Shown: in pieces, positions 8,920 to 34,680 of the stretch
Position numbering within the stretch: position 1 is the first letter of the stretch
Layout of the letters: each line of letters begins with the position of its first letter
DNA from: Phycisphaerae bacterium
Lineage (GTDB): Bacteria; Planctomycetota; Phycisphaerae; Sedimentisphaerales; Sedimentisphaeraceae
Length of the DNA: 34,766 nucleotides
Direction: 5' to 3'
NCBI GenBank assembly: GCA_015493385.1
Contig: WGDE01000014.1
Location: 1-34,766, forward strand
The notes under the pieces: generated by a model
What the model was told of the DNA's origin: nothing
Databases searched by the model: none
The model's input: only the letters and a program-made list of their open reading frames with translations
Made by a program: the position numbers and the translations under genes

Positions 8920-10548
8920 CTAATTATTAAACTTTGCGAGAGCAATTTCTATTCTAGAGATAGTTTTGTCTTTTCCTACAATCTCTACCGTATCAAATAT
9001 TGCTGGGCTAATTGTTGACCCGCTAAGTGCTATGCGCAGCGGTTGAGCAATTTTGCCAAGCCCAATCTCTTTCTCTTTACTGATGCCACGCAAGAGCTTC
9101 TCAATTGTTTGTGCAGAAAAATCCTCAAGCTTGCCGAGCTCTTCTTTTAGCATCTCTAGGACCCTGCAACCCTCGTTGTCATTTTTGAGCAGTACTTTTT
9201 TGACCGCCTTCTCGTCGAACTCTATTTCACTATCCTCAAAGAAAAATAGCAAGCATTTACTCTCAATATCTCTTAGAGTTTTTGCCCCTTTGTTTAGCTC
9301 TATCAATCTCTCCAGTAAAGCATCATCTGCAGCTAACATAGGACTATTGTTTAGCTCTAAGAATCTGCGCATATGGGGAACTAGCTTAGCAGAGTCCATT
9401 CTTGAGATATGTTCCATATTGAATGACGAGAGTTTATTGCGGTCGAAGAAGCTGTTAGCCTTGTTTAGCCTTTTCTCGTCGAACGCCTCTACCAATTCAT
9501 CCAAACTCATAATCTCACGCTCATCTCCTGGGTTCCAACCGAGCAGGGCAGTGAAGTTGACTAGAGCTTCTGGAATATAGCCGCTCTTAATAAAATCAAC
9601 TACATTGATCTCAGGCAAATCGATGCCAATAAAATCTGCGATGGCGTTTATCGAGGCCTCATCTGGAGTTGTTTTCTTCTTTAGGAAAGACTCTAGATCT
9701 TCGATAGAGATATTGCCAGCCTTAGCTATAGAGGCTTCATCTATGTCTGTGGTCGCCTTAATGGCTTTGCGCAGAGTATTTGGACGTTCTCTCTTTGAGA
9801 GCTTACCTCCATTATCACTAACCGTTATAGACATATGGGCGTATTCTGGAGTTCTAAAGCCAAGTGCTTCTTGTAGGCATTGGTGTCCTGGAGTATTCAT
9901 CAAATGCTCTTGTCCACGCATTACGTGGGTTACGCCCATAAGCTCGTCATCAACGACTACCGCAAAGTGATAGGTTGGAAATCCGTCTGATTTTTCAATT
10001 ATAAAGTCTGCGATTTCTTCTGGAGCGAATGTTACCTCGCCACGAATAATATCCTTGATGACAATTGGCTTATCTTGTGGAACTGCAAAACGCACAGTTA
10101 CAGGCTTGCCTTGAGATTTTGCAGCTTCTACGTCTGCTTTGGTGGGCAGGGTTTCTGGTCTGCGGTAAATGAAGCTCTTTTTCTCTTTTTCTGCCTTTTG
10201 TCTCATTGCGGCAAGCTCTTCTGCTGTATCAAAGCAGTAGTAGGCCTTGCCTTCGTCTAGGAGCTGCTTCATATATTTGTCATATATTTCTCGCCTTTGG
10301 CTTTGGAGGTATGGAGCGTTTGGACCGCCAACTTCTGGCCCCTCATCCCAGTCTAGCCCTAGCCAGCGCAGATCATCGATAACCTGTTGCATTGCGGTTG
10401 GAGTGTTGCGTTTTTGATCCGTATCTTCAATACGAAGAATGAATTTTCCGCCCATCTTACGAGCAAGTAGCCAGTTAAACAGAGCGGTTCTTGCTCCTCC
10501 AATATGTAGGTAGCCAGTTGGTGACGGGGCGAATCTAGTAATAACCAT
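8920..10548 (-). CDS. gltX: Glutamyl-tRNA synthetase, with insertion after KLSKR
   Basis: HIGH motif region RFAPSPTGYLHIGGARTALFNWL, KMSKS-equivalent KLSKR. Start set at ATG 10548 (GAGGAAACAC upstream) instead of the ORF-track 10614. Confidence 0.95.
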   Translation of the reverse strand: MVITRFAPSPTGYLHIGGARTALFNWLLARKMGGKFILRIEDTDQKRNTPTAMQQVIDDLRWLGLDWDEGPEVGGPNAPYLQSQRREIYDKYMKQLLDEGKAYYCFDTAEELAAMRQKAEKEKKSFIYRRPETLPTKADVEAAKSQGKPVTVRFAVPQDKPIVIKDIIRGEVTFAPEEIADFIIEKSDGFPTYHFAVVVDDELMGVTHVMRGQEHLMNTPGHQCLQEALGFRTPEYAHMSITVSDNGGKLSKRERPNTLRKAIKATTDIDEASIAKAGNISIEDLESFLKKKTTPDEASINAIADFIGIDLPEINVVDFIKSGYIPEALVNFTALLGWNPGDEREIMSLDELVEAFDEKRLNKANSFFDRNKLSSFNMEHISRMDSAKLVPHMRRFLELNNSPMLAADDALLERLIELNKGAKTLRDIESKCLLFFFEDSEIEFDEKAVKKVLLKNDNEGCRVLEMLKEELGKLEDFSAQTIEKLLRGISKEKEIGLGKIAQPLRIALSGSTISPAIFDTVEIVGKDKTISRIEIALAKFNN

Positions 10549-10726
10549 GTGTTTCCTCATAAAAGTTGTATTGTTTAACCCCATAACTCTAAGCCAGATA
10601 AGGCTTAAAGTCAAGTGGCGGCATGTGAATAATATTGGTTTAATATTCTCAATTTTCTGTTATAATCACGCCCTCTAGAGTCCCTTGACTATTAAAAAAA
10701 TACTATCGTTGTATTGAGGTATAATT

Positions 10727-12466
10727 ATGGCTAATGAGTCACAGACAAATAAATCAGATGAAGTTCAAAAAGATTTCATTCGTGATATAATCTCTAAAGA
10801 AGTTGCCCAATCAAATGGGAAAATGCAGGTTCACACACGCTTTCCCCCAGAACCAAACGGCTACCTTCATATTGGCCATGCAAAAAGTATATGCCTTAAT
10901 TTTGGCTTAGCTAAAGATTTTGGTGGTATTTGTAATCTTCGTTTTGACGATACCAATCCAGCAAAAGAGGAAGATGAGTATGTCAATTCTATCATTGAAG
11001 ATGTTAAGTGGCTAGGCTGGGATTGGGGCGAGAATCTTTTCTTCGCATCTGACTATTTTGATAAGATGTACGAGCTTGCTAAAGAGCTTATTCGCGCAGG
11101 TAAAGCGTATGTTTGCGACCTTGGTATAGAAGAGACGCGCAGGTTGCGTGGAACTCTCACAGAGGCCGGTACAAATAGCCCGTTTAGGGATAGGAGTGTT
11201 GAGGAAAACCTAGAGCTATTCGAGAAGATGAAGAATGGTGATTTTCCAGACGGTTCAAAAGTTCTTCGCGCAAAGATTGATATGGCATCGTCGAACATGA
11301 ACATGCGCGACCCAGTTATGTATCGAATCTTACATGCGACTCATCATAGAACGGGTGATAAGTGGTGTATTTACCCAATGTACGACTGGGCGCATGGACT
11401 AGAAGATTCGTTTGAGGGGATTACCCACTCAGTCTGTACGCTAGAATTTGAAGATCATAGGCCATTGTACGATTGGTTCATTGAGCAACTTGGAATTCAT
11501 CATCCACAGCAGATTGAGTTTGCAAGACTCAACCTAACCTACACTGTTATGAGCAAGAGAAAACTCCTTAACCTTGTTGAGCAAAATTATGTTAGCGGTT
11601 GGGACGACCCACGTATGCCGACAATCTCTGGCTTGAGGCGCAGAGGTTTCTCTCCAGAGGCTATCCGCGAATTCTGCAGAGTTATTGGTGTTAACAAGCA
11701 AAACTCCTGTGTCGATTATGCACTGCTTGAGCATTGTCTACGCAAAGATCTCAATATAACATCCAATAGAGTTATGGCTGTTCTCGATCCGCTTAAGATT
11801 GTCATTACTAACTTCCCTGATGAAGGAGTTGAGGATCTTGAGGCTGTCAATAATCCAGAAGACGCATCTCAAGGTTCAAGAAAGGTACCTTTCTCTAAAG
11901 AGCTCTACATTGAGCGTGAGGATTTTATGGAAGAGCCTCCTAAAAAGTTCTTCCGTCTTGCTCCTGGTAGAGAAGTGCGTCTGCGCTACGCATACTTTAT
12001 AACCTGCAATGAAGTTATCAAAGACAATACAGGTAAAATAATTGAGCTGCGCTGTACATTTGACCCTCAAACAAGAGGCGGAGATGCACCAGATGGCAGA
12101 AAAGTTAAATCGACATTGCACTGGGTTTCTGCCGAGCATGCGATAGATGCCGTGGTAAATATCTACGATCATCTATTCATCAAAGAGAACCCTGAAAAGG
12201 TGTCAAAAAAGGGCGATTTTACTGATAATATAAACAAGGATTCTCTAAAGACGGTTAACTGTAAACTTGAGCCATACCTTGCGAATGTGAAACCGTATGA
12301 AAGATTACAGTTTGAGAGATTGGGCTACTTTTGCTGTGATAAAGATTCAACCCCAGACAACATTATATTTAATAAGACGGTAGGCTTGAAAGATATGTGG
12401 GCAAAAATCCTTAAACAAAAACAAAATCAAGCCAAGCAGAAACAGCAGAAGAAGAACAAAAATTAA
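10727..12466 (+). CDS. glnS: Glutaminyl-tRNA synthetase
   Basis: [44 protein letters not shown], GlnRS anticodon-binding domain; K/Q-rich C-terminal tail. Confidence 0.96.
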
Positions 12467-25261: not shown

Positions 25262-26050
25262 TTACAGTTTACGGTATTTTCCTTGGGGCAAAAAGACGTA
25301 TTTGCCATTTATCTCAGTGGATGCACCACTGACGGAGAAAATCTCTGCAATCTTATTATTCTCAAATATACTCTTAATGTCTCCCAAGTAAAAACTATCT
25401 CGGTATCCTAGGAGCAAAACTTTATCACAATATTGACCAGATAGATTGATGTCATGTGTGACGGTTAATATCGTTTTGGACGATTCTAGTTGCATTCGCT
25501 TGAGCAAGTCATAGATTTCAACTTGGTGTCTCAAATCGAGAAAACTTGTAGGTTCGTCAAGTAAGATTATTGGAGTGTCCTGTGCTAGGGCTCTAGCAAT
25601 AAAGACTCTTTGTCTCTCTCCTGTACTTATCTCATTGAGTTCTCGGTTGGCTAGATGAGATATATTGGTGGCTTCAAGAGCGTTTTTTACAATGTCCCTA
25701 TCCAGAGAGCTCTCAAAACCCAGTATATTAAAAAAGGCAGTCCTTGCCATCATAACAGTCTCGTAAACGTTAAATCCAAAAGTAGTGGAAAAGTCTTGGC
25801 GTACTATGGCTATTGTTCTTGCCATATCAAGACAGCTGTAGTCGCAGATATCTTTGCCCATTAGAGTGATATTGCCTTTGTTAGGCTTTAATACTTGAGT
25901 TAATAGATTCAGTAGTGAGCTCTTGCCCGCTCCGTTTGGGCCGGCTATTGCCAGAAACTCTCCTTCTCTCACATTAAACTCTAGAGAACTGAGAATCTCT
26001 TCTTCTCCGTATGAGAAGTCTAGGCTGTTAACTTTTATTGCATCAATCAT
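25262..26050 (-). CDS. ABC transporter ATP-binding protein, BtuD/FecE type
   Basis: Walker A GPNGAGKSSLLNLL, signature STGERQRVFIARALAQ, Walker B IILLDEPTSFLD. Confidence 0.93.
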   Translation of the reverse strand: MIDAIKVNSLDFSYGEEEILSSLEFNVREGEFLAIAGPNGAGKSSLLNLLTQVLKPNKGNITLMGKDICDYSCLDMARTIAIVRQDFSTTFGFNVYETVMMARTAFFNILGFESSLDRDIVKNALEATNISHLANRELNEISTGERQRVFIARALAQDTPIILLDEPTSFLDLRHQVEIYDLLKRMQLESSKTILTVTHDINLSGQYCDKVLLLGYRDSFYLGDIKSIFENNKIAEIFSVSGASTEINGKYVFLPQGKYRKL

Positions 26051-27069
26051 AATAGGTTTTGCCTCTTAGAATTTTTAATCAGAAGCACAATAAAGAATGG
26101 TCCGCCTATCAAGGCGGTAAGGATTCCTACCGGTAGCTGCGCGGGAGATATGATAATTCTAGCGATTGTGTCGGCAATAACCATAAAGATTGCACCTGCA
26201 ATTGCAGTTATTGGTAGCAATCTTCTATGGTCTGCTCCCCAAATTAACCTAACTGCATGGGGAACAATCAGTCCAACAAAACCAATCAACCCGCTTAGAC
26301 TCACCGCAATTGATGTTATAAATGCAGTTGTAAGAAACGTAATAAAACGTACTCTAGATACATTGATACCTACCGTCTTTGCCTGCGCAGCGCTAAAGCT
26401 TATCAAATTCAAGCTTGGCCCAAGCCGCATCAGTGCTATCGCTGCTAATAATGTTAGAATCGCCATTGTTGTAATAGTGGTTAAATCTTCAGGAAAAATA
26501 TTGCCCATAAGCCATATCATCGTGCTGTGAACTGTACTACTTCTTGCAATGGCAACCATAAACATTGTAATGGCAGAGAGAAATGTATTTATTACCACTC
26601 CTGTTAATAGTAGCCCGTTGCTACTGCGCTTATCAGCTAACGAACCAATAGTCCAGACGAGCCAGACAGTGGCAAATGCGCCTATAAACGCAAATATTGC
26701 AATAGGTGATTTACCTAGAAATGTAAATTGCAGACCCATTACGCTAGCAAGCATTGCGCCTACTCCAGCTCCGCTTGATATTCCAAGTATATATGGATCG
26801 GCGAGAGGATTTTTAAGTATAGCTTGTAAAACAGCTCCTGATATTGCTAGTGCTGCACCAACAATACTAGCTAGTAAAACTCTTGGCAGTCTTATTCTGT
26901 AGAATATCTCAGAATCGATAGCCGAAATATCAGAGTGTATTAATTGCTCAATTGAGAGAGTCTTTGTTCCAACGAGACTGCACACTAGCATTGTGGCTGC
27001 TAAGATAGCAACACCTATTAGGATAGATGTTAGTAGTTTAGTGAATGTTAGTCCTGATTGTTGCGTCAT
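26047..27069 (-). CDS. FecCD/BtuC-family ABC transporter permease
   Basis: RLPRVLLASIVGAALAISGAVLQAILKNPLADPYILGISSGAGVGA; GLIGFVGLIVPHAVRLIWGADHRRLLP. Confidence 0.95.
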   Translation of the reverse strand: MTQQSGLTFTKLLTSILIGVAILAATMLVCSLVGTKTLSIEQLIHSDISAIDSEIFYRIRLPRVLLASIVGAALAISGAVLQAILKNPLADPYILGISSGAGVGAMLASVMGLQFTFLGKSPIAIFAFIGAFATVWLVWTIGSLADKRSSNGLLLTGVVINTFLSAITMFMVAIARSSTVHSTMIWLMGNIFPEDLTTITTMAILTLLAAIALMRLGPSLNLISFSAAQAKTVGINVSRVRFITFLTTAFITSIAVSLSGLIGFVGLIVPHAVRLIWGADHRRLLPITAIAGAIFMVIADTIARIIISPAQLPVGILTALIGGPFFIVLLIKNSKRQNLL

Positions 27070-27965
27070 TTCTGTTCTTTTTCACTATAAATAATATCGT
27101 ATAGCTTCTCAGCTGTCTCTACAACTCTAGGGCCTGGCCTACTCATTATATCGGCGTCTATTGCGAAGATTTTATCATTTTTAACTGCCGGAATTGACTG
27201 CCATTTTTTATAGAATTCTTTCCAGTCATCTTTGCTGTTTGATAGAGTCTTCTTGTTACGAGATTCTATTATAATATCTGGTGCAAATAGAATAAGGGAT
27301 TCATTGTTGATTTGTGGCCAATGACAATCTATTCTCGTAACCGCATTGACTGCTCCAACAATCTTTATTAAATCACCGATATACGTATCATTCGCAGCGA
27401 CAATAAGCGGTCTCTGTTGTATTACGACTAAAACTTTTGATTTGTGTTTAGCTCTAGCTTCTTGAGATATTGCCTTTAACTTAGCTTTAATGTCTTCTAT
27501 AAGAGCAGAGCCTTTTCTCTGAATATTGCAATCTTTAGCTATGGTATTTATTGAAGTATAGATATCCTCCAAATTCTCTACGTCTAGAGAGACACTTTTG
27601 CAACCAATATGCTCTAGTCTTGAGCGAAAACTCTGGTGTAGATTCGACGATGTGGAGAACGCTATCGTTGGTTTAAGCGTAAGGATTTTCTCTAAGTTTA
27701 TCTGCGTTGTTGAGCCAATGACGGGCTTGTTCTTAGCCTCTAGTGGATAATTGCAGTAACTCGTTACACCGACAACATTATCGCCAAGATTTAGAGCAAA
27801 TAATATCTCTGTAATATTTGGAGCCAACGAGATAATGCGCAGTCCATCGTGCGTTTTATTAGTAGCGCTAAAAGTCTCAGATGAATTGGTAAACTGCCAA
27901 GCAATAAGAGAGCTAAGAATTATGAATATTAGCAGAATTGAAAATGTTTTATATTTTGAAGCCAT
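27066..27965 (-). CDS. BtuF-like (cobalamin/metal-chelate) substrate-binding protein
   Basis: IISLAPNITEILFALNLGDNVVGVTSYCNYPLEAKNKPVIGS; MSRPGPRVVETAEKLYDII. Confidence 0.88.
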   Translation of the reverse strand: MASKYKTFSILLIFIILSSLIAWQFTNSSETFSATNKTHDGLRIISLAPNITEILFALNLGDNVVGVTSYCNYPLEAKNKPVIGSTTQINLEKILTLKPTIAFSTSSNLHQSFRSRLEHIGCKSVSLDVENLEDIYTSINTIAKDCNIQRKGSALIEDIKAKLKAISQEARAKHKSKVLVVIQQRPLIVAANDTYIGDLIKIVGAVNAVTRIDCHWPQINNESLILFAPDIIIESRNKKTLSNSKDDWKEFYKKWQSIPAVKNDKIFAIDADIMSRPGPRVVETAEKLYDIIYSEKEQK

Positions 27966-29824
27966 TAAAATCCAGTTCTCTTGAATTTCTTTTCAAGCTC
28001 TTCGATTGTAAATTTGATAGTCGTAGGTCTTCCGTGTGGGCATCGACTTGCTCTATCAACGAGTTCCTTATCGCGTAGTAATTGCACCATCTCTTCATTG
28101 GATAGTGGTTTCCCTGCTTTAATTGCGGCCTTGCATGCCGTCATATCCATTATGCTGTGCAAGAGTTTCTCGGCGTCTGGAGTTATGGTTGAATCCATGA
28201 GTACATCTAGTAAATCTTGAACAAATGAGCTGATGTTTGCATCTTTTAGCAATGTAGGGAAAGAATGCACCGCGCAACTCTTTGGCCCAAACTGTTCTAT
28301 ATCTATTCCAAGTTTGTTGAATGTTTCTTTGTTATCCTCTATCGCCTGCTGCTGTGCGGTTGTTAAGTCTATCGGTTCTGGTATTAAAAGTTTCTGTGAT
28401 TCCAGAGGCTTTTGATTTCTAACTAGCCTGTCGCAGAGTTTCTCGTATATGATTCGCTCATGCAAAGCATGTTGGTCCACAATAGCAAAGCCGTCGGGTG
28501 TTTGGTAGATAATGTAGCTGTTGTGTATTTGGAGTATGGTGTTTTTCTTGTCTGGCTGGTTCTGCGCAATGTCTACGGAATCGGTATTGTAGTAGCTTTT
28601 CGGTAAGTCTTCGCTAATTCTTTGAGACCTGTTTGCGCCTGCGTTGTTTGCTGTTGAATGGTTAAAACTAAATTTGCCTTGTGTGCTTATCGGTTTGGAA
28701 GATTTGGTGAAGAAGTTTTCCATTGCATCTTTTATTCGCTCTCTTCGTATATACTCTGAGCGGCTAATCGTTGCATCCGCTGCAATGTTGCCATTTTGTG
28801 CGGTTAGATTGTCAAATGATGAAACTACATCAAGCTCGATACTGCGCAGTTTTTCTTTGATGATGCCAAGGATTTGAGAGTGAACCAGAGATGAATTGTC
28901 AAATCTGATTTCTATTTTGCTAGGGTGTACGTTTACATCATAGCTATCGTATGGCATCTCAATAAATAGAAAGGCGACAGGGTGCTTATTAGGTTCTATC
29001 AGTCCGCGATACGCTTCTTTGATTGCGTGAATAATAAATTTGTCGCGGATGAACCTTCCATTTAAAAATGTATATTGATATTTGTTGTTACTTCTAGCGT
29101 TTGCAGGCATACCGATGTATGCTTTAATTTTTATATCTTTCTCTTTTGTTTCGATGCTTAGTAAATCGCTTGCAATCTGCTCATTCATCAATGTCTTTAT
29201 TCTACTAACAACATTATCGGTTGGATGCAGGCGATATTTTTGGCGATCATTGTGAATAAGAGTGAAGCCTATATTACAGTTCGAGAGGGCGATACGCGTG
29301 AACTGTTCGGTGATATGCGTCATTTCTGTGCTACTTGCGCGCAAGAACTTACGCCTTGCAGGGAGTTTGTAGAAGATATCTCGCACTTCAATAGTTGTTC
29401 CGTATGAAGAACTCGCTGGCATAACAGCACTCTTCTCTGAGCAGTCTATCTCTTGGGCGTAGGCCTCGATTGCGTCTTTTTCTCTTGAGACAATTCTGAC
29501 CTTTGCAATTGAGCCAATACTTGCCAATGCTTCGCCTCTAAAGCCCATAGACTTTATTGCGGTTAGATCGTCTATGGTTTTAATCTTGCTCGTTGCATGC
29601 GGTTCAAACGCGACAGGTATATCCTCCTTAGCTATCCCGCAACCGTCATCAGTAACAGAGATTAAACGTTTTCCACCATCTTCAATTTTGACAATGATAT
29701 TCTTTGCTCCGGCATCGATGCTATTCTCTAGCATCTCCTTAACAACGCTTGCAGGTCTCTCGATTACTTCACCTGCAGCAATCATATTTATCATATTCTT
29801 GTCAAGGACTTTGATTTTAGACAT
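27965..29824 (-). CDS. mutL: DNA mismatch repair protein MutL, endonuclease type
   Basis: GHKL motifs IAAGEVIERPASVVKEMLENSIDAGA, DDGCGI, GFRGEAL; C-terminal DQHALHERIIYE and CPHGRPT. Start set at ATG 29824 (AGGGA upstream); the ORF-track extension to 29869 runs into the upstream gpmI terminator. Confidence 0.96.
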   Translation of the reverse strand: MSKIKVLDKNMINMIAAGEVIERPASVVKEMLENSIDAGAKNIIVKIEDGGKRLISVTDDGCGIAKEDIPVAFEPHATSKIKTIDDLTAIKSMGFRGEALASIGSIAKVRIVSREKDAIEAYAQEIDCSEKSAVMPASSSYGTTIEVRDIFYKLPARRKFLRASSTEMTHITEQFTRIALSNCNIGFTLIHNDRQKYRLHPTDNVVSRIKTLMNEQIASDLLSIETKEKDIKIKAYIGMPANARSNNKYQYTFLNGRFIRDKFIIHAIKEAYRGLIEPNKHPVAFLFIEMPYDSYDVNVHPSKIEIRFDNSSLVHSQILGIIKEKLRSIELDVVSSFDNLTAQNGNIAADATISRSEYIRRERIKDAMENFFTKSSKPISTQGKFSFNHSTANNAGANRSQRISEDLPKSYYNTDSVDIAQNQPDKKNTILQIHNSYIIYQTPDGFAIVDQHALHERIIYEKLCDRLVRNQKPLESQKLLIPEPIDLTTAQQQAIEDNKETFNKLGIDIEQFGPKSCAVHSFPTLLKDANISSFVQDLLDVLMDSTITPDAEKLLHSIMDMTACKAAIKAGKPLSNEEMVQLLRDKELVDRASRCPHGRPTTIKFTIEELEKKFKRTGF

Positions 29825-29845
29825 TGTCTTTCCCTGCTTGGTCTT

Positions 29846-29889
29846 AAAAAATCCTAAACGGGCAGCCACTCTTTGGCGACTGCCCGTTT
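29846..29889 (-). terminator. Rho-independent terminator of gpmI
   Basis: Minus strand AAACGGGCAG...CTGCCCGTTT then AGGATTTTTT. Confidence 0.88.
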
Positions 29890-29893
29890 GCTT

Positions 29894-31468
29894 TTACTCT
29901 CTAATTAGAAGCGATTCGCCCGTCATCTCTTCTGGAATATCAAGCCCCATCATATCCAAGAAGGTTGGAGCAACATCGGCTAGTCTTCCTCCAGATTTGA
30001 GTTTAGTGCCAATTAAATCTTCGTCGAATACTACGAATGGAACATCTCCAGTTGTGTGAGAGGTGAATGGATTATCTAGACTACCCTCGGCCATTTTTTC
30101 GCTGTTGCCATGGTCTGCAAGTACAACGGCCGCGCCGCCGAGAGCCTTGACTTTATCAAGAATTTGTCCTACGCAATTATCGACAGTTTCGCAGGCTGTT
30201 ATTGCGGCATCTAGGAATCCTGTGTGTCCTACCATGTCAGGGTTGGCGAAGTTTACGATAAATATGTCATATTTCTCGTCATCCATTTTTTCAAGTAGTA
30301 GTGCGCAGACCTCGTTTGCGCTCATCTCTGGCTTCAAGTCGTATGTTTCAACTTTAGGAGACGCTACAATTTCTCTATCTTCTCCCTCAAACGGTTCTTC
30401 GCGATAATCGTTGAAGAAGAATGTTACATGTGCATACTTTTCAGTCTCAGCGGTTCTAAACTGACGTAATCCTAGCTTAGCAGTGTATTCGCCAAAGATA
30501 TTTTTCATCTTCTCAGGCTTTGGAAATGCTACTGCGGCAGGGATGCTCTTGTCGTATTCAGTTAGGCACACAAAATATGTGTCGACGATTTTCTCTCTTT
30601 TGAAACCGCTGAAATCCTTGTCAACGAATGCTCTAGTAATCTCGCGTGGTCGATCTCCCCGGAAATTGAAGAATACTACCGCATCACCATCGCAAATAGT
30701 TGCCTTTGGCTTGCCATCATCGCCTGCGATAAGGCAAGGCGCAACAAACTCATCTGTTTTGCTATCTGCATAGGTTGCATCAATCGCTTCTGTTGCAGAG
30801 GCGAAGAGTTTGCCCACGCCATTTGTTAGACAATTGTAAGCCTTTTCGACTCTATCCCAGCGGTTATCTCTATCCATAGCATAGAATCTGCCGCACAAGG
30901 AGGCAACCTCACCTGCGCCAATCTCTGCCATCTTTGCTTCGATATCGGCTAGGTAGCCCTTACCGCTTGTTGGTGGGCTGTCTCTGCCGTCTGTGAAGGC
31001 GTGTAGGTATACCTTTACTCCTTCTTTCTTTGCCAGCTCAAGCAGAGCATAGAGATGCCCAAGTAGAGAGTGGACTCCTATATCGCTACAGAGTCCCATT
31101 AGATGAAGCTTGCCGCCATTTTTAATTGCAGTCTCGATTGCATCGTTTAATACCTTGTTCTCAAAGAATGAGCCATCCCTAACTGCCAAGGTGAGTCTAA
31201 CAGATTCTTGGTAGACAATTCGGCCTGCTCCGATATTTTGGTGTCCAACTTCGCTGTTTCCCATTGTCCCAGCCGCTAGTCCAACATCCTCTCCGCTAGT
31301 GTGTATTAGAGTGTTTGGGTATTTTCTCATAATCGCATCATCACAAGGAGTATTTGCAAGCTTTATGGCATTAAAGGCATCATCTTCCATTTTTGGGTTA
31401 TATCCCCAGCCATCACGTATTATCATGACGTAAGGGCGTTTTTTAAGTTTAGTCTTTTTTTCTATCAT
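29894..31468 (-). CDS. gpmI: 2,3-bisphosphoglycerate-independent phosphoglycerate mutase
   Basis: MIRDGWGYNP, TMGNSEVGHQNIGAGRIVYQ, HAFTDGRDSPP, VVLADHGNSEKM. Confidence 0.95.
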   Translation of the reverse strand: MIEKKTKLKKRPYVMIIRDGWGYNPKMEDDAFNAIKLANTPCDDAIMRKYPNTLIHTSGEDVGLAAGTMGNSEVGHQNIGAGRIVYQESVRLTLAVRDGSFFENKVLNDAIETAIKNGGKLHLMGLCSDIGVHSLLGHLYALLELAKKEGVKVYLHAFTDGRDSPPTSGKGYLADIEAKMAEIGAGEVASLCGRFYAMDRDNRWDRVEKAYNCLTNGVGKLFASATEAIDATYADSKTDEFVAPCLIAGDDGKPKATICDGDAVVFFNFRGDRPREITRAFVDKDFSGFKREKIVDTYFVCLTEYDKSIPAAVAFPKPEKMKNIFGEYTAKLGLRQFRTAETEKYAHVTFFFNDYREEPFEGEDREIVASPKVETYDLKPEMSANEVCALLLEKMDDEKYDIFIVNFANPDMVGHTGFLDAAITACETVDNCVGQILDKVKALGGAAVVLADHGNSEKMAEGSLDNPFTSHTTGDVPFVVFDEDLIGTKLKSGGRLADVAPTFLDMMGLDIPEEMTGESLLIRE

Positions 31469-31867
31469 CTCATACCTTTCATTAGGAACTGTTTATCAGT
31501 TTTGTTTAGGTAGCCTTAATGCAGCCCTGCTTATGGTATAAGACCTTGCCAATTAAGTCAATCATTCAAGAGATAAAGCGCATGGTAAAATCTGATATAT
31601 TTAACATAGATATTTCTTTTGTGACAGTATTGCGACATGTGTAGTAGCAAATTTGATTGGCACGATCCAAAATACTGCCAATATTGACTTGCTTTAGTTG
31701 GGACCGATAACTTTTCAATTCTTACGGGATTCTTCACTGAAAAGGTGTAGTTTTCTTGTAGAATATGTCAATATCATCTTTTTTAAGATCTAGAACGCGG
31801 ATTGAAATCTTGTTTGCCTCCTTTCAAATACAGTTCTTTACCTTAGTGTTTTTTTGATTAAGTAGCA

Positions 31868-31941
31868 ACTCTCGCCTGACGAGGAGTCCACTGAAAGCTA
31901 AAGGTAGCTCTCTTTGTATCAACGGGATTGCAAAGAGGTGG
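31868..31941 (+). ncRNA. Predicted structured 5' leader RNA of the 903-aa lipoprotein gene
   Basis: Abutting Watson-Crick helices: ACT-CTCG/CGAG-(G)-AGT 31868-31887; CCAC 31888-31891/GTGG 31938-31941 enclosing AGCTA/TAGCT 31896-31909 and CTCTTTG/CAAAGAG 31910-31937. Confidence 0.5.
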
Positions 31942-31968
31942 TTTTGGGATTTTTTTTGAGGGCTCAAC

Positions 31969-34680
31969 ATGAAGAGTTTGAAAAAATGTAGGAAGATTAG
32001 TTTAACCTTGCTAAGTACATCCGTTGCGATTGTACTTGTTGCTTCAGGTTGCTCTAGTAGTAAGTATGATGAAGTTCTAATCAACGGTAACGACCGTGCT
32101 GAGATTGCTCAGACTCACTCTGAGTTCTCAGATTTAGCCAAAAGCTCTAATTTGCCTATGGAGTATGTTAGTGAGGGCAAAATTGGAGTTTCTAGTGTTG
32201 AGGCAGCTCTTGAGACAGCTGACGCAACAGACCTTCACGCTCAAGCTCAGAGGGATAAGAGTCTAGCAGATTTTGACGCTCGCCGTTCTGAAGTTAAAGC
32301 TAAAATCAACCAAGATCTAGCTAAGGCGCAGGCTCTTCGTGAAAAGTACAGCAATGAGTATGGCAAGGCTATGGCGCAAATAGCAGCTAGAGAAGCTGAA
32401 CTTGGTGCTTTTGCTAAACGCAAAGAGACTGTTATCTCATCTTTGAAAAAGGAAGGCGATAGCCAGTGCAAAGCTATCATTGCAAACGCCAATGAGAAGT
32501 ATGCTAGTGAGACTGCTCGTATTGATAAGATTAAACAAGTCTATAACGCAATCGAAGTTGAGAGTAATGCTAAGATTCTTGAGATGCAAGAAAAGTCAAA
32601 GGCTACAAGGCAACGCGCAGCCGCTACAGTATCTCAGTTGAATGCACAGGCAGAGGCCGTTAAACTAGAAACTCAGGCAAAAGCAAGTGAAATTCAAGAG
32701 CAGATTCGTTCTAACGATGTTCAGACAAAGTCTGAAGCAGACAAGATTCGTGCAACAAGAGAATCTTTGATAAAGGATACTGCAGCTCGCGTTAAGCAAT
32801 TGCGTTCTAAAGCGGCAACAATTGAGGCAAACCTAGCCTCTCATAAATACGAGCTAATGCTTGCAGAAGCAGTTGCAACAAAGACAGGCTCTAAAGCTAA
32901 GACTCAAGAGTCACTATCTAATGCTCCAACTAGATTCGACAAGGCTATGGCAGAGATTCAAAGTCTAAGGGGGGATATTGCGCATCGCAAAGATGCTTCT
33001 GATGCTGCTTATAAGTCTGGAATGGCTAAGATTAACGCTAAACTCTCAGATGAGCTAAACGAAGCTAAGAAATTGCGTGTTAAATCTAACCGTATCGAAG
33101 ATACCGCTCACGCAGAGTTTGTTAAAGCTCAAGCTGCTTCAGTTGCAAATGCAGTACGTGAAACAGCTGCCCATGCAGAAACTGTTGCAAAGGCTAAAGA
33201 GATGCAGATAGTTGCTCAAGCGGAAGCAGAAGCAGCAAAGATTAAAGAAGAATTACTAGCTCAAATTGCACAAAATAAGAAGGCTGGTAGCGTTGAAATG
33301 GCGAACCACACAACTCCAGCTGTACCTCTAGATAATGTTATTCATCAGGTTCCGGTTAGTCCAGTTGTTGCTCCAGTTGCACCAAGAATGGAACCAGATT
33401 ACATTGCATCTTATAAGAGCTCTCTTGCTAAAGTAATGTCTTTAAGAGCTAAGGCTGATGCTATAGAGATGGTTGCTAAGGCAACTTTTGCTGAAGAAAA
33501 GACTAAAATGCTTGCAGTGAAGACTCAAGAAGAAGCCATCATAACAGAGAAGCTTGCTATTGCAGATGCTCTTGAAGCACAGGCAAAATCAAGATTTGAT
33601 GAAATCAAAGCTAAACTCGCTACAGATATGGACATCGTCGAGAGTCAGTATCGTCAAGACGTTGTTGCCGCAGAATCTTTCCGCAAAGAGAAAGAAGCTG
33701 AGGTTCTTGATATTCAAAGTCAAGCACTTGCACTTGAGCAGATAACTAAAGCACGTGTAGAAAAACTCTCCACTGAAGAAGCTAGTGTTCTAGACTGTGG
33801 TGCTAATAAGAAGCAAGAGCTTGAAGTTCAACTTTGGGCAGTAAAGCAAAAGGGCGATGCAGAATATTCAAGACTTACTTCTGAATCAAAGAGTGTTCTA
33901 GAATCACAAGAAGCTTTAGCTCTTGAGATTGATGCACAGGTTGCATCTGCTAAAAAGCACCTAAAGGCAGAGCTTGCTAAGATTCAGAATTCAATTGATT
34001 CTTCTACACAGATTGCAAAGGCAGACTATCAACAATCACTGTCTAAGGCAACTGTTCTTGGTAAAAATATAGAAGCTAAAATCAACCGTGTAGCTGCTCA
34101 ATCTACAATGGAACATGAAGTTGCTAGTGCTCAAATAGAAAGAGACCGTCAGCTTGCACTAAGCCAAAATATGCGTAGCGAAGCTGCTTGTGATCGCATG
34201 GTTGCAAACGCAAAAACTAGTGGGCTATGTGAGAATGCAAAGCTTGATGCTCTATACGCTGCTGCAGATGCAGACCTTAAGATTGCACTAACAGAAAATG
34301 CTGCAAAGAGAGACGCTGCCGCAGCTAATCTTGAAGCAATCAAGGCTAGATTTGCTGCAAGAGTTGAGCAAGTTAAGGCTGAACGTGTAATTGATATTGC
34401 AGATGAGCATAATTCTTTAGCTCTAAAACGTACAGATCTTGCTAGTGCATTAGCGCAGGCTGTTGCAGCTCGCGATAGTTCTAGACGTAAGCTAGATGCA
34501 CTTGCAAAGAAACAAGCAGATCTTGAAGAAGCTTCAATGGTCAACTGGTCTGCAAAACTTGCAAAGGTTAAAGAGAATGGTTTCGAGTTTAAGACTTTTG
34601 ATTCAGTTCCAGATGTACGCGTAGCAGAGTCTACTCAAACTGAGCCAAAAGCTGTTTTAACTAAAAATACAGATTTCTAA
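31969..34680 (+). CDS. 903-aa Ala/Lys/Glu-rich coiled-coil lipoprotein, uncharacterised
   Basis: GAGGG SD at 31958-31962; signal peptide with lipobox ASGC (Cys28); then almost continuous Ala/Lys/Glu-rich helix-type sequence with a Pro-rich break near residues 450-475. Confidence 0.82.
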   Translation: MKSLKKCRKISLTLLSTSVAIVLVASGCSSSKYDEVLINGNDRAEIAQTHSEFSDLAKSSNLPMEYVSEGKIGVSSVEAALETADATDLHAQAQRDKSLADFDARRSEVKAKINQDLAKAQALREKYSNEYGKAMAQIAAREAELGAFAKRKETVISSLKKEGDSQCKAIIANANEKYASETARIDKIKQVYNAIEVESNAKILEMQEKSKATRQRAAATVSQLNAQAEAVKLETQAKASEIQEQIRSNDVQTKSEADKIRATRESLIKDTAARVKQLRSKAATIEANLASHKYELMLAEAVATKTGSKAKTQESLSNAPTRFDKAMAEIQSLRGDIAHRKDASDAAYKSGMAKINAKLSDELNEAKKLRVKSNRIEDTAHAEFVKAQAASVANAVRETAAHAETVAKAKEMQIVAQAEAEAAKIKEELLAQIAQNKKAGSVEMANHTTPAVPLDNVIHQVPVSPVVAPVAPRMEPDYIASYKSSLAKVMSLRAKADAIEMVAKATFAEEKTKMLAVKTQEEAIITEKLAIADALEAQAKSRFDEIKAKLATDMDIVESQYRQDVVAAESFRKEKEAEVLDIQSQALALEQITKARVEKLSTEEASVLDCGANKKQELEVQLWAVKQKGDAEYSRLTSESKSVLESQEALALEIDAQVASAKKHLKAELAKIQNSIDSSTQIAKADYQQSLSKATVLGKNIEAKINRVAAQSTMEHEVASAQIERDRQLALSQNMRSEAACDRMVANAKTSGLCENAKLDALYAAADADLKIALTENAAKRDAAAANLEAIKARFAARVEQVKAERVIDIADEHNSLALKRTDLASALAQAVAARDSSRRKLDALAKKQADLEEASMVNWSAKLAKVKENGFEFKTFDSVPDVRVAESTQTEPKAVLTKNTDF

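Follow-up and report, generated by a model that had tools for sequence, protein, structure and literature searches.

The leader of a giant lipoprotein gene in a Phycisphaerae bacterium can be drawn as a compact series of four RNA helices, and the question is whether this drawing reflects a structured RNA or some other conserved element. The window, i.e. the whole stretch of DNA that was analysed, is 34,766 nt long, and the gene occupies 31969..34680 on its + strand, on which all leader features described here also lie. It encodes a protein of 903 aa with a lipobox (VASGC) at the N-terminus, for which searches of Pfam, NCBIfam and the PDB found no relatives. The drawing comprises H1, ACT-CTCG(CCTGA)CGAG-G-AGT, at 31868-31887; a junction-closing helix (31888-31941) that pairs CCAC (31888-31891) with GTGG (31938-31941); H2, AGCTA(AAGG)TAGCT, at 31896-31909; and H4, CTCTTTG/CAAAGAG, at 31910-31937 with the loop AACGG at 31921-31925. 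The letters and positions of these helices, as given in the original prediction, are correct when checked against the sequence. The series ends 27 nt 5′ of the ATG at 31969, and a likely Shine-Dalgarno sequence, GAGGG at 31958-31962, is read 6 nt before this ATG.

By its named relatives, the window belongs with MAGs of the Phycisphaerae/Sedimentisphaerales. Orthologues of the lipoprotein are found in 23 of the 161 Sedimentisphaerales genomes covered by an order-wide search, and remote homologues with 23-36% identity occur elsewhere in the class, outside the order; it should be noted that the assemblies compared are incomplete MAGs. One of the carriers is a genome of the same genus (G001), whose lipoprotein, encoded at locus L003, is 89% identical to that of the window's own genome (G000). 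The DNA of the two is about 55% identical just upstream and about 86% identical from TTTTTTTGATTAAG into the 5′ UTR, and this sharp rise in conservation coincides with TTAAG, the proposed -35 block. Among the orthologous leaders, the most invariant columns are TWAAG and GACGA, not a helix. The arrangement TWAAG, exactly 17 nt, CGA is present in 18/18 of the aligned leaders (31858-31882 in the window), within which TTAAGT (31858-31863) is the proposed -35 element and TGACGAGG (31877-31884) the proposed -10 element of the DNA. GACGA is invariant in the alignment of the relatives and also occurs in the window and L003; the region reads GACGAAA in most relatives and GACGAGG in the window, with the CGA core retained. 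Since H1 falls on this promoter-like element, it probably corresponds to spacer and -10 DNA and is probably not transcribed.

The stricter pattern TWAAG-N14-TGACGA is found once in the window, compared to 0.05 expected from shuffling. Pattern scans give 7 matches in G000 vs. 1 for the reversed control, and 3 in G001 vs. 2 for the reversed control. All three G001 matches are orthologues of intergenic ones in G000, namely: those of the lipoprotein, a prepilin (PF07963) and a response regulator-Hpt protein (PF00072, PF01627). Between the orthologous sites the length of the spacer is constant and its sequence has diverged. A fourth intergenic site in G000 lies upstream of a dCache sensor gene, and the remaining 3 of the 7 matches fall within coding frames. 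An order-wide scan shows no enrichment of the strict pattern relative to the reversed control (74 among the matches listed vs. about 71), and an order-wide regulon defined by the strict motif was discarded on this count. Thus, the promoter assignment rests on the conservation among orthologues, the comparison with flagellin promoters described below and the few sites in G000 and G001.

The sigma-28 consensus of E. coli is TAAAGTTT-n11-GCCGATAA (PMC2859248). The lipoprotein leaders resemble sigma-28 (FliA) promoters in their TWAAG(T) upstream block, present in 18/18 leaders and reading TTAAGT in the window vs. TAAAGT for sigma-28, in their downstream CGA core and in the near-equal distance between the two; furthermore, the other sites of this layout are located before genes for a prepilin, a response regulator and a sensor. 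They differ from the E. coli consensus in having GACGA(AA/GG) instead of GCCGATAA. Within the order itself, the upstream regions of flagellin genes contain TWAAG-N16-CGAWA in 19/28 cases and the N17 form in one, compared to a mean of 0.19 and a maximum of 2 after shuffling. A targeted literature search found no description of a flagellin promoter pattern for this order. Flagellin is present in 13/13 lipoprotein genomes of the flagellin test set (hypergeometric P 0.04, uncorrected for relatedness). Matches to FliA_WhiG (TIGR02479) occur in 159/159 genomes (146 above the cut-off; best E-value in G000, 5.0e-62), and this model also matches other sigma-70-family factors and is no proof of a dedicated FliA.

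The lipoprotein element has a spacer one base longer than that of the order's flagellin promoters (17 vs. 16 nt in 19/20 sites) and GACGA where these have CGATA. The same difference is seen inside the single genome G001, whose flagellin promoter has a 16-nt spacing, compared to 17 nt in the lipoprotein element. Many genomes have several FliA_WhiG-family matches, and both observations would suit recognition of the blocks by something other than the flagellin sigma, namely a different sigma factor, a FliA/WhiG paralogue that defines a second class of promoters, or a transcription factor. We regard this as unlikely, given that the -35 block and the CGA core are common to the flagellin promoters and that the single N17 flagellin (L129) has the same spacing as the lipoprotein element. 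Instead, the leader probably consists of a promoter of the sigma-28 (FliA/WhiG-family) type and, downstream of it, a short 5′ UTR with one hairpin. RNA polymerase carrying a FliA/WhiG-family sigma would recognize TTAAGT and TGACGAGG, and transcription would start, judging from the distance to the proposed -10 element, near 31889-31893, which would leave H1 out of the message.

A few details of the related sites were also observed. At the flagellin loci (L115-L144), 19/28 upstream regions read CTTAAGT-N15-CGATAATG, mostly 103-153 nt before the start. The prepilin (L080/L146) and response regulator-Hpt (L082/L145) loci of G000/G001 have the same two-block element upstream at constant spacing, and in both prepilin copies TGACGA is flanked by CCCTA...TAGGG.

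As for the RNA downstream of the proposed start, an alignment of about 90 nt was made from the leaders of 15 orthologues belonging to two other families. RNAalifold, run on 15-16 orthologues, predicts one hairpin in one run and two (A and B) in another with RIBOSUM scoring. Hairpin B has 7 bp and an ANNGG loop, with 96% of its cells paired and double changes at three pairs. In a shuffling control that keeps sequence kinship in, 0/500 shuffles match its paired cells, double changes and covariation score, and slid versions do not come close either. Hairpin A, which contains GACGA and is the relatives' equivalent of H1, is equalled by 67/500 shuffles and is thus not significant. The covariation among homologous leaders that the original prediction had proposed as a check is therefore borne out for hairpin B, which beats 500/500 shuffles, but neither for hairpin A nor for the four-helix model, which is unconserved.

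The RIBOSUM-scored prediction of both hairpins, together with the retention of hairpin A in two leaders (L009 and L049) despite changes on both of its arms, would fit a two-hairpin regulatory RNA in which A and B are both transcribed, e.g. as a site for a protein or small molecule. Such an RNA is quite improbable, since the covariation of hairpin A fails to beat the shuffles, and the prepilin and response-regulator genes have the same blocks with quite different spacers, which a promoter fits better.

A covariance model of the relatives' leader finds a single copy in each of 19 genomes of the order, and apart from a weak match in G153, every copy lies at the lipoprotein gene. The model has zero matches outside the order in the class sample, where reading also finds no similar leader. 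The leaders of the window and L003 are not recognized by it, so that two features tie them to the leader family: the two-block element, and the position and loop of H4. By this position and loop, H4 appears to be the counterpart of hairpin B. Its loop is AACGG in the window and AGCGG in L003, and two U-A/U-G changes in L003 leave its stem intact, apart from a shift of one inner pair next to the bulge; these changes are consistent but one-sided only. For a transcript that begins at 31890, H4 is predicted to form with a probability of about 0.98 in the window and about 0.90 in L003, and in L003 this drops to about 0.5 for later starts.

The weak G153 match (L049, E 0.003) is located upstream of a very acidic repeat protein (locus 230-1489), which adjoins a protein with a lysine-rich histone H1-like tail (1856-2479). 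In this leader the GACGA part fits, but hairpin B is not seen. In another genome, G070, the leader (L017, about 1258-1480) has a hairpin B region that is seemingly partly duplicated, which results in a much greater distance to the start codon.

The original prediction matched the leader to no known riboswitch or leader family, and this holds: at the gathering score, Rfam has zero matches to the window or to the orthologous leaders, and the permissive matches lie far below the cut-offs and look like noise. Hairpin B is a small 5′-UTR hairpin without an Rfam family. It resembles Rfam cis-regulatory families in that it covaries and belongs to a conserved leader specific to one gene, and it differs from Rfam riboswitches and leaders in that neither the window nor the relatives have a match, a conserved junction or an aptamer-like core.

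The 5′-UTR stem-loops of ompA and papA stabilize their mRNAs. Titles on these stem-loops are among those cited in PMC3997798. The leader hairpin is similar to them in lying near the presumed 5′ end of an envelope-protein mRNA and apart from the Shine-Dalgarno sequence; it is dissimilar in that its ANNGG loop is conserved in the relatives and in that it is not strictly 5′-terminal. The 5′ UTR of roughly 78 nt would fold into H4, and by this analogy the likeliest function of H4 is to shield the 5′ end of the message against decay. A stabilizing 5′-UTR hairpin is the likeliest role for the hairpin part of the leader. The proposal of a stabilizing 5′ structure thus survives for a conserved leader with a hairpin that covaries in the relatives, and that of a three-way junction stacked on H1 is unsupported.

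Under the sigma-28-type promoter, the lipoprotein would be co-expressed with motility and sensing genes. A puzzling RNA fold is in this way turned into a testable hypothesis, namely that a giant planctomycete lipoprotein may share a sigma-28-type regulon with a prepilin, a response regulator and a sensor. In addition, the analysis yields a local flagellin promoter pattern for the order and a small 5′-UTR hairpin outside Rfam. A more far-reaching version, in which hairpin B is the core of an undescribed gene-specific regulatory RNA that couples the lipoprotein to the flagellar programme via an RNA-binding partner and TWAAG-N17-CGA is a second promoter class served by a distinct FliA/WhiG paralogue, is decidedly doubtful.

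The four-helix drawing itself was also evaluated by folding and by comparison with L003. The MFE structure of exactly 31868-31941 (RNAfold) is essentially the drawn one at -21.6 kcal/mol, and its energy is equalled by 27/200 dinucleotide shuffles (z -1.12). For 31840-31975, the segment that the original prediction had put forward for folding, the MFE fold is a different one, and its energy does not stand out from that of shuffles (z +0.15, 104/200). By the comparison with dinucleotide shuffles that had been set beforehand, the structure is therefore no better than controls. In L003, H1 has two disrupted pairs with zero compensation, and H2 has two disrupted, uncompensated pairs as well as one inserted nucleotide. 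The CCAC/GTGG sequences do not vary in L003 and are thus uninformative on pairing; for a transcript starting at 31888, this helix has a predicted probability of 0.83 in the window and 0.0 in L003. The RNAalifold consensus of the 15-16 orthologous leaders has no three-way junction in either run and no counterpart of the CCAC/GTGG closing helix. As a drawing the four-helix object is genuine; it is thermodynamically ordinary and unconserved, with support for H4 only. It is very improbable that H1 and a three-way junction stacked on it are transcribed from a start upstream of 31858 and act as a cis-regulatory RNA: this fold is the MFE structure of the isolated 74 nt and has a weak sigma-70-like site at 31737-31764 before it, but that site is unconserved in L003, H1 lies on the promoter-like element, and the energy, the lost pairs and the consensus of the relatives all stand against it. 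A conserved two-block promoter, as proposed here, can mimic an RNA helix in raw sequence.

Other candidate functions of the leader were discarded as well. A hammerhead-like motif (CUGANGA ... GAAA plus a hairpin), noticed by eye, does not form stems I and II and has no Rfam match at permissive thresholds. A leader peptide beginning at ATGACGAAA lacks, by eye, a conserved start codon (AAG in L018, GAG in L007, CTG in L009) and a conserved frame. A pseudoknot between the loop of hairpin A and a downstream TCATAA fits, also by eye, about half of the relatives but neither the others nor the window. Sequestration of the Shine-Dalgarno sequence by GAGTCC, seen in the MFE fold of 31840-31975, loses one pair in L003. 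No intrinsic terminator was found, and GGA, looked for as part of a CsrA binding hairpin, is present in 0/14 of the hairpin B loops found.

Some coding regions showed features of their own. The lipoprotein orthologue of G146 (L018) has a single in-frame TAG at the position equivalent to residue 115 of P0001. The window codon opposite this TAG is a CAA/CAG-type Gln codon, from which TAG is one base away, and the TAG may represent a nonsense change, an assembly error or recoding. The TAGs of three further orthologues (L020, L021 and L029) are close to the normal C-terminus. Elsewhere in the window, two adjacent Glx-tRNA synthetase genes are divergently oriented at 8920-10614 (-) and 10727-12466 (+); one of the products has an Anticodon_2 domain (GluRS-like), and the other is GlnRS-like. 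Finally, a FecCD-type ABC transporter operon encoding an ATPase, a permease and a periplasmic binding protein is located at 25262-27965 (-), and is adjoined by the genes for MutL (27965-29869) and iPGM (29894-31468).
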